Below are positions 54,419-61,161 of a stretch of 64,000 nt of DNA, piece after piece. Both the position numbers and the translations under genes were made by a program. This DNA is from Salinicola tamaricis (GTDB lineage Bacteria; Pseudomonadota; Gammaproteobacteria; Pseudomonadales; Halomonadaceae): positions 3,720,001-3,784,000 of the forward strand of contig NZ_CP023559.1 of NCBI RefSeq assembly GCF_003006155.1, in the 5' to 3' direction. The notes beneath the pieces are model-generated. The model did no database searches. It was not told the DNA's origin and worked only from the letters and a program-made list of their open reading frames with translations. How positions within the stretch are numbered: the stretch's first letter is position 1; each line of letters begins with the position of its first letter.

Positions 54419-56329
54419 TCAGTGCTGATCCGGCTTGCCTGCCTGCTCGAGCTGCGCCAACAGCGCCTCTACCGACAGGGAGCCCAGATCCTCGCCGGAC
54501 CGAGTACGCACGGCAACGGCACCCGATTCGACTTCCTTATCTCCGACAACCAGCAGATAAGGGATCTTCTGCAGCGTATGTTCGCGAATTTTAAAGCCGA
54601 TCTTCTCATTCCTCAAGTCCGCTTCGACACGGAAGCCCGCTTCACGCAAGCGCTTCAGGAGATTGTCGGCATATTCGCGCTGTGCATCGGTGATGTTCAA
54701 CACCACCGCCTGGACCGGCGCCAGCCACAGCGGCAGGGCTCCGGCGTAGTGCTCGATCAGGATACCCACGAAACGCTCCATCGAGCCAACGATGGCACGG
54801 TGCAGCATGACCGGGGTCTGGCGCGAGCCATCCTCGGCCACATACTGGGCACCGAGGCGACCGGGCATCATGAAGTCGACCTGCATGGTGCCGACCTGCC
54901 ACTCGCGACCCAGGCAGTCCTTCATATGGTACTCGATCTTGGGACCATAGAAAGCACCTTCGCCGGGCAACTCCTGCCATTCGACATCACAGTTGCCGAG
55001 CGCGGCACGCAGCGCACCTTCTGCCCTGTCCCAGGTCTCATCGCTGCCCAGGCGCTTGTCCGGGCGCAACGCGATCTTCACCGCGATGTCGTCGAAGCCG
55101 AAGTCCGCGTAGACCTTGAGCGCCTGACGATGGAAGGCGGTCACCTCGGGCTCGATCTGCTCGGGCGTACAGAAGACGTGACCGTCGTCCTGGGTGAAGG
55201 CACGCACGCGCATGATACCGTGTAGCGCACCGGAAGGCTCGTTGCGATGACAGCCGCCGAACTCACCATAACGGATCGGCAGCTCGCGATAGCTTCGCAG
55301 ACCCGAATTGAAGACCTGGACATGGCCCGGGCAGTTCATCGGCTTGAGCGCATACTCGCGCTTCTCCGACTCGGTGAAGAACATGTTCTCGGCGTAGTTG
55401 TCCCAGTGGCCAGACTTCTTCCACAGCGACACGTCCATCACCTGAGGACACTTGATCTCCTGGTAGCCGCCGCTCTTGTAGACCTTACGCATGTACTGCT
55501 CGACGACCTGCCACAGGGTCCAACCGCGGGGGTGCCAGAACACCATGCCAGGCGCCTCTTCCTGCATGTGGAAGAAGTCGAAACGACGCGCCAGCTTGCG
55601 ATGGTCGCGCTTCTCGGCCTCTTCCAGACGCTGCAGATAGGCCTTGAGCGCTTTCTTGTCGGCCCAGGCCGTGCCGTAGATACGGGTCAGCATGGGGTTG
55701 GCGGAGTCACCCCGCCAGTAGGCGCCAGCCAGCTTGGTCAGCTTGAACGCCTTGAGGTGCCGAGTGTTGGGCACATGAGGCCCGCGGCACATGTCGATGT
55801 ACTCCTGGTGATGGTAGAGACGAATCGTCTCGCCATCGGGAATCCCTTCGACGATCTGCTGCTTGTAGGGCTCGTCGCGGGAGACGAAGGTCGCCAGCGC
55901 CTTAGCCTTGTCGACGTATTCGCGCTCGACGTCGTAATCCTGGTCGATCAGCGCCTTCATGCGCGCCTCGATCTGCTCCAGATCCTCCGACGAGATCGAC
56001 TCGCCGAAGTCGATGTCGTAATAGAAGCCGTCTTCGATGACCGGACCGATCGCCATCTTCGCTGCCGGGTAGAGCTGCTTGATCGCATGCCCCATCAGGT
56101 GAGCGCAGGAGTGGCGTATGATATCCACCCCTTCCGGGTCGCGCGCGGTGATGATGGCGACCTCGGCATCGTGTTCGATCAGATCCGCGGCATCGACCTC
56201 GACCCCATCGATCTTGCCGGCAATGCACGCTTTGGCCAGACCCGGCCCAATGGACTTGGCCAGCGCCATGATGCTGATGGGATGTTCGAAGGTTCTCTGA
56301 CTGCCGTCGGGCAGCGTGACAATAGGCAT
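54419..56329 (-). CDS. thrS: Threonyl-tRNA synthetase
   Basis: 636 residues, intact. TGS domain [19 protein letters not shown], editing domain with [19 protein letters not shown], class II core with the zinc ligands Cys in [10 protein letters not shown], His in [20 protein letters not shown] and His in [20 protein letters not shown], and the C-terminal anticodon domain ([20 protein letters not shown]). Start ATG 56329 with AAGGA seven bases upstream. First gene of the translation operon; a tRNA-like hairpin precedes its ribosome-binding site. Confidence 0.97.
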
Positions 56330-56343
56330 GAAGACATCCTTAT

Positions 56344-56378
56344 GTTCAGTGGTGGTCCACACCAAGGACCACATGAAC
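56344..56378 (-). promoter_or_regulatory. Probable thrS translational operator: anticodon-arm mimic of tRNA-Thr(GGU)
   Basis: On the minus strand an outer stem GTTCA / TGAAC (56374-56378, 56344-56348) encloses a seven-base-pair stem GTGGTCC / GGACCAC (56366-56372, 56352-56358) with the seven-base loop TTGGTGT. The loop has U at position 33 and GGU at positions 34-36, as in the tRNA-Thr(GGU) anticodon loop. The hairpin ends two bases before the AAGGA ribosome-binding site of thrS. In E. coli, ThrRS binds a comparable anticodon-like hairpin in its own mRNA leader and blocks ribosome entry. Confidence 0.7.
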
Positions 56379-56582
56379 GGTTCGATACGGTGACGTCGCT
56401 ATCCACGATCAGCCTGCATACGGGCAGGCCAATGTTCGGCGGAAAGGCGTCGGCTTGACGATATCGCCGTGAGGCGAGTTTGGGGGCACTAGCGTAGCAG
56501 CGCCGGGAGACCGACGCCATCGATTACGCGGTCGCCCGAGCAGACGTGGCAGGAGAAGTCGTCGCTGGAGCGGACAGGATTG
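56379..56582. other. Upstream region of the thrS operon
   Basis: No gene seen. Together with the operator above it fills the 314-bp gap between thrS and the OmpA-family gene, and must contain the operon promoter on the minus strand; I could not place the promoter with confidence. Confidence 0.4.
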
Positions 56583-61085: not shown

Positions 61086-61161
61086 TGGTCGGAGCGACAG
61101 GATTCGAACCTGCGACCTCTGCAACCCATTGCAGCGCGCTACCAAGCTGCGCCACGCTCCG
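61086..61161 (-). tRNA. tRNA-Pro, most likely anticodon GGG, one base missing in the anticodon loop
   Basis: Acceptor stem CGGAGCG / CGCTCCG, discriminator A and encoded CCA; D arm GCGC-AGCTTGGTA-GCGC; T arm GCAGG-TTCGAAT-CCTGT; variable loop AGGTC. The anticodon stem CTGCA / TGCAG encloses only six bases (ATGGGT) where seven are needed. Restoring ATGGGGT gives U33, anticodon GGG and G37, exactly tRNA-Pro(GGG), and the normal length of 77. The rest is canonical, so this is a working gene with a sequencing error. Confidence 0.92.

Follow-up and report, generated by a model that had tools for sequence, protein, structure and literature searches.

The thrS leader of Salinicola tamaricis carries two hairpins with covarying stems, i.e., arm 1 beside the ribosome-binding site and arm 2 further upstream, and base 34 of their anticodon-like loops is variable. 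Judged from sequence and from analogy with Escherichia coli, the leader is very probably a two-arm translational operator. Threonyl-tRNA synthetase (ThrRS) would use both arms to repress its own translation, and tRNA-Thr would compete with them for the enzyme. The thrS operator is known from E. coli, and its predicted counterparts are found here in many distant relatives.

The window, i.e., the whole stretch of 64,000 nucleotides that was analysed, contains the following features.

54419..56329, minus strand: thrS, threonyl-tRNA synthetase of 636 aa, start ATG at 56329 (translation, Pfam, PDB)
56337..56341, minus strand: Shine-Dalgarno (SD) sequence AAGGA, 7 nt before the thrS AUG (sequence)
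56344..56378, minus strand: putative operator arm 1, with a 7-bp stem, 7-nt loop, CAC internal loop and 5-bp lower stem (fold, leaders, covariation, model)
56349..56351, minus strand: unpaired CAC opposite one unpaired U (56373), near-invariant in relatives
56359..56365, minus strand: anticodon-like loop UUGGUGU of arm 1, with U33 at 56364, G34 at 56363, G35 at 56362 and U36 at 56361
56409..56432, minus strand: putative operator arm 2, UUGGCCUGC-CCGUAU-GCAGGCUGA, 6-nt loop with CGU (genus alignment and covariation)
56418..56423, minus strand: loop CCGUAU of arm 2 (C34, G35, U36); 1/18 genus genomes has CAGUAU
56491..56499, minus strand: candidate extended -10 box TGCTACGCT of an inferred thrS promoter (genus conservation)

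thrS Gene and Arm 1 Hairpin

The Pfam domains TGS, tRNA_SAD, tRNA-synt_2b and HGTP_anticodon were found in the thrS product. With TGS and SAD at the N-terminus, a catalytic core and a domain that binds the anticodon, the product has the make-up of the repressor of an E. coli-type operator. The protein matched PDB 1qf6, which we take to be the E. coli ThrRS, with an E value of 7.6e-278, and 1kog, presumably the operator complex, was also among its PDB relatives. A consensus promoter scan of the thrS leader gave no match, and TGNTANNNT was present in the candidate -10 stretch in 17/18 genomes of the genus. The adjoining infC (window 54384-54367, minus strand) has an apparent start at a rare AUC codon, comparable to AUU, presumably the start codon of E. 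coli infC. A 47-base stretch of thrS coding sequence (L002 1501-1548, genome 3196703-3196750) was 85% matched elsewhere in the genome.

Arm 1 reads GUUCA-U-GUGGUCC-UUGGUGU-GGACCAC-CAC-UGAAC on the minus strand from 56378 to 56344. The inner stem is GUGGUCC/GGACCAC (7 bp), and the lower stem, GUUCA/UGAAC (5 bp), is separated from it by a single U in the 5' strand and by CAC in the 3' strand. Two bases 3' of the arm, the SD sequence begins. The 7-bp stem, the loop UUGGUGU, the 5-bp second stem and the distance of two bases are thus present as the initial annotation had described them. It had also read the loop as reproducing U33 and the GGU anticodon, which agrees with the tRNA of the same genome, since UUGGU is the first five bases of the tRNA-Thr(GGU) loop UUGGUAA. 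The description of arm 1 stands, but it was incomplete, as a second covarying NGU hairpin upstream had been missed.

The minimum free energy fold of a 61-nt piece contained exactly the arm 1 hairpin, at -18.5 kcal/mol. This energy is unremarkable (z -1.31), and 24/200 shuffles folded equally well. The z-scores of the leader folds were weak, i.e., -1.31 and -1.70, and were left out as proof. Fold energy by itself proves nothing for arm 1, and it is the conservation that proves the hairpin. In Rfam 15, window positions 56300-56520 were hit only by DicF, with 14.4 bits and E 0.9, where the gathering score is 48. No Rfam model fits this leader, and the only match in the window above the gathering score was a tRNA gene elsewhere. 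The thrS leader of E. coli K-12 likewise matched no Rfam model up to E 1.

Conservation and Covariation of Arm 1 in the Family

ThrRS was found in 151/151 genomes of the GTDB family sample, and the leaders of 150 were read. AGGA or AGGG was located at most 25 nt from the thrS start in all 150. A strict motif, xANGTG...CACCACT, fitted 134/150 leaders, and the remaining 16 were inspected by eye. Eight of them had GUC/GAC replacing GUG/CAC, one (L220) had GCG/CGC, and six, all from genus g4, had an NGU hairpin but no CAC loop. In the last one (L203, G020; the same sequence as that of Halomonas sp. NO4, L036), the 5' half of arm 1 was degenerate. In genus g4 (L219, L223, L224, L225, L228 and L232), the NGU hairpin before thrS was kept and the CAC loop lost in 6/6 leaders, as judged by eye. 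Together with the degenerate 5' half in Halomonas sp. NO4, this indicates that arm 1 can decay.

Arm 1 was present in its 29-nt form in 140/150 family leaders. The other ten scored below 11, and by eye NGU was seen in each of them, nine times in a hairpin and once, in L203, with a broken stem. The motif score (maximum 13), which was devised after the motif had been seen, reached at least 12 in 139/150 family leaders against 0/3000 mononucleotide-shuffled leaders, the best shuffle scoring 11.

The alignment (A1) comprised 101 distinct sequences, i.e., 65 from the family and 36 from named relatives including E. coli K-12. Family leaders scoring below 11 (10/150), named loci below 12 (32/81) and duplicates were left out. 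In the inner stem 96.5% of the cells were paired, and 7/7 pairs showed double changes. Pairing in the lower stem was 69.1%, a value lowered at least in part by an additional base that many halomonads carry at this place. Covariation over the whole structure was 0.355; shuffled alignments gave 0.166 (0/500), and slid ones did not exceed 0.135. All five covariation measures exceeded each of the 500 shuffles, which ignore relatedness, as well as the slid controls.

The CAC internal loop was constant in the 101 rows of A1, although this is partly selection, as the score by which the rows were chosen rewards CACT. Among the class and phylum leaders, CACU was found in 70/73, CUCU in 2 and CGCU in 1. 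A plain anticodon arm has no counterpart of this loop.

Second Arm of the Leader

By aligning 18 genomes of the genus, the own genome included, arm 2 was found 30 nt upstream of arm 1. It was present in 18/18 genomes, with the core GCCCGUAUGC in 17 and GCCAGUAUGC in one. The loop of arm 2 is 6 nt long in the window, with no U33. Among 15 distinct rows the stem was 88.3% paired, with double changes at 6/8 pairs, and four of the five covariation measures were above every shuffle, the fifth being equalled by 11/500.

Arm 2 is clear in the own genus, in Pseudomonas and in some others. In Pseudomonas it reads CCUGCC-ACUGUGA-GGCAGG, with variants carrying U, C or A at position 34, and several leaders of genus g20 have CGCCCA-NNGUAR-UGGG. 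In one genome (G503, leader L295), two tandem hairpins of the arm 1 type, both with CGU, stand at thrS, and these two arms look like duplicates. A search for 7-nt-loop hairpins upstream of arm 1 was positive in 28/122 leaders, against a shuffled mean of 2.15 and a maximum of 6 in 100 rounds. This test is inflated because kin dominate the matches, i.e., 16 named Pseudomonas and three leaders of family f3 (L275, L320 and L331), of which L320 and L331 are Pseudomonas-like. By the same 7-nt-loop criterion, no arm 2 was found in 94/122 leaders. When leaders were aligned genus by genus, in nine other genera and in Pseudomonas, no arm 2 shared by all was seen in the output listed.

Distribution beyond the Family

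The 101 rows of A1, the window sequence and K-12 among them, served to build a covariance model (R1). In the own genome, R1 scored 51.8 bits at arm 1 of thrS and 15.6 bits at the next best site. Of 81 named thrS loci (80 relatives and K-12), 49 were matched, by construction, as those 49 supplied model rows. They belong to halomonads, Pseudomonas, Marinomonas, Acinetobacter, Enterobacterales, Photobacterium, Shewanella, Aeromonas, Halioglobus and others. R1 gave no match at the other 32/81 named loci, including Burkholderia, Paraburkholderia, Massilia, Xanthomonas, Lysobacter, Moraxella and Halomonas sp. NO4.

In the class sample, which consists mostly of genomes outside the R1 rows, 117/369 genomes were matched under stricter filters, 115 of them once each (119 matches), and 252/369 had no match under the same filters. 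Among the more complete class genomes, 104/314 were matched. The phylum sample gave 52/299. The class and phylum samples include a few family genomes, which match by construction. The initial annotation had suggested that the element was kept over a large evolutionary distance. This is borne out by the matches in the class and by the arm being alignable to K-12.

The neighbors of 78 matches were inspected, a part of the overlapping 119 class and 52 phylum matches, i.e., the 30 best, 21 further ones including the weakest, and 27 others picked by hand. thrS lay directly downstream in 76/78 (30/30, 20/21 and 26/27, respectively). The two matches away from thrS were of different kinds. One, in G745, is the sole listed phylum match outside the class; it has no adjacent thrS, reads as coding by eye and was rejected as chance. 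The other, in G454 (L296 492-526), is a detached near-copy of the genome's own thrS arm 1, located just past what looks like the 3' end of a tRNA; the 2.1 kb read contain no thrS match.

Loop Base 34 and the Question of the Isoacceptor

Base 34 of arm 1 was G in 127, C in 12 and A in 1 of the family leaders scored (140/150). At the named loci (49/81) the counts were G 31, C 12, A 4 and U 2. In the class and phylum leaders with thrS (73/73, none dropped by score), C was the commonest base (42), followed by G (24), U (4) and A (3). Within genera g2 and g20 the base also differs. G35-U36 was present in 262/262 scored leaders, a constancy that is partly selection since the score favors both bases, and U33 was present in 249/262. 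The window leader itself carries two different triplets, GGU (arm 1) and CGU (arm 2). The own genome encodes tRNA-Thr with GGU, UGU and CGU, among 15 scanned of 30 loci (71 tRNA matches).

It was considered whether the loop imitates tRNA-Thr(GGU) specifically, with a control answering to that isoacceptor, as the initial annotation had supposed. The identity of UUGGU with the tRNA loop, the G34 of most family leaders and the GGU of arm 1 in 18/18 genomes of the own genus all speak for it. So does a review, in whose table the threonine determinants of bacteria include G34 along with G35 and U36 (PMC9976931); the listing gives G34 some weight in tRNA charging. Nevertheless, this specificity is very improbable. 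G is conserved at base 34 in the own genus but not in the family and beyond, where C34 is the commonest in the class and phylum set, and the base changes even inside g2 and g20. In the same leader, CGU stands in arm 2, and one genome (G025) carries AGU in arm 1 where its tRNA-Thr, in 30 of 58 tRNA matches and flanks read, are only GGU, UGU and CGU. G34 was therefore rejected as an isoacceptor signal, and the idea of a different isoacceptor being imitated here is not supported: relatives have G, C, A or U, and G35-U36 stay. Free variation of the loop, which the initial annotation had named as an argument against its reading, concerned G34 alone and did not extend to the genomes of the own genus. 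The GGU loop is best read as a mimic of the threonine anticodon, not of one isoacceptor, because ThrRS would read the G35-U36 common to threonine anticodons and not base 34.

Proposed Mechanism and Alternative Explanations

In the proposed operator, each arm would imitate the anticodon arm of tRNA-Thr, and a ThrRS dimer may use its two anticodon-binding domains to hold arm 1 and arm 2. In the loops it would read G35-U36, with U33 usual, and not base 34. The bound enzyme would lie over the ribosome-binding site, which begins two bases past arm 1, so that an excess of ThrRS would shut down its further synthesis. With tRNA-Thr abundant compared with the enzyme, ThrRS would be displaced and translation would resume. 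The binding, the use of both arms by the dimer, the repression and the competition by tRNA are what we infer from E. coli. A further, tentative idea is that of an old gammaproteobacterial operator whose recognition code is not plain anticodon mimicry and in which base 34 is free in each arm independently (even AGU). The near-invariant CAC might then serve ThrRS as an additional determinant, present in the mRNA and not in the tRNA, for telling operator from tRNA, which for now we doubt more than we believe.

Because the hairpin adjoins the SD sequence, it could also shape ribosome standby, mRNA stability or a cold response without binding ThrRS. Such a role is very unlikely as an explanation, for it accounts neither for G35-U36 being constant in both loops, on stems that covary, nor for the restriction to thrS. 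An inverted repeat upstream of a gene may equally be a DNA palindrome bound by a transcription factor. This has hardly any probability, since the conserved loop is not palindromic, the stem often contains G-U pairs (in 19, 21 and 34 of 101 rows for three of its pairs), the element stands next to the SD sequence, and its matches are nearly confined to thrS. Nor is it credible that the region is coding and the hairpin incidental, with ThrRS starting at the in-frame ATG at 56374. The frame is open as far as 56374 and an ATG stands at this position in 11/18 genomes of the genus, but the codon is ACG in 4/18 and AAG in 3/18. Moreover, the spacer from arm 1 to the thrS AUG, 15 to 21 nt in most family leaders, varies by one or two bases between leaders and so breaks the frame. 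The alternative start was rejected on both grounds, i.e., a codon not kept in the genus and a spacer length that shifts the frame.

Comparison with Known Systems

The putative two-arm operator most resembles that of E. coli K-12, whose leader has TATGTGATCTTTCGTGTGGGTCACCACTG, with 23/29 bases as in the arm 1 core of the window. The same stem, 7-nt loop, CAC loop and lower stem are found at the same gene and beside the SD sequence, with an NGU loop and a second NGU hairpin upstream. The K-12 leader matches R1 at 46.1 bits, being itself one of the 101 model rows. There are also differences. Arm 1 has CGU in K-12 and GGU here, and arm 2 has UGU in an 8-nt loop, AUUUGUUG (predicted fold), in K-12 and CGU in a 6-nt loop here. 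The linker differs as well. The initial annotation had placed the hairpin with the ThrRS operator arm of E. coli, and the identity, topology, place and covariation agree with this. Arm 1 presumably corresponds to domain 2 and arm 2 to domain 4 of the E. coli operator. A dimer model with one operator arm per ThrRS subunit was reportedly put forward by Romby in 1996.

The T-box leader of Gram-positive thrS genes also controls a threonyl-tRNA synthetase gene, and it binds tRNA and acts on transcription. The likeness is that of a leader RNA governing this gene; in contrast, no Rfam model scored above its gathering score at the thrS leader of the window. The B. subtilis thrS leader undergoes processing (PMC3997798). 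In three papers (PMC9976931, PMC7373986, PMC3858243), the E. coli operator is described as two anticodon-arm mimics with tRNA-Thr competition and 30S exclusion, and a loop change is said to switch it to MetRS control. The yeast AspRS mRNA element, which has a tRNA-Asp anticodon-like domain, is similar in that the synthetase binds a part of its own mRNA resembling an anticodon (PMC9976931). It belongs to a eukaryote and to another synthetase, and is likened by description, not by sequence.

Described for E. coli, the autoregulation of ThrRS is a standard example of mimicry of tRNA. No published survey of the distribution of the thrS operator was found in a literature search, subscription papers lying outside its reach. 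The spread of the operator has a meaning as a natural mutagenesis experiment, in which G35-U36, stem pairing and the CAC loop were kept and base 34, stem sequence and linker were let go, all of which are directly testable. R1 can be used for annotating thrS leaders, which match no Rfam family.

Elsewhere in the window, at 61086-61161 (minus strand), lies a tRNA-Pro(GGG)-like gene, as identified by eye, with a 6-nt anticodon loop. It is one G short in a GGGG run that is intact in 17/17 other genomes of the genus, and the missing G is possibly an assembly indel. The own genome, a single contig, has a listed completeness of 93.25%.
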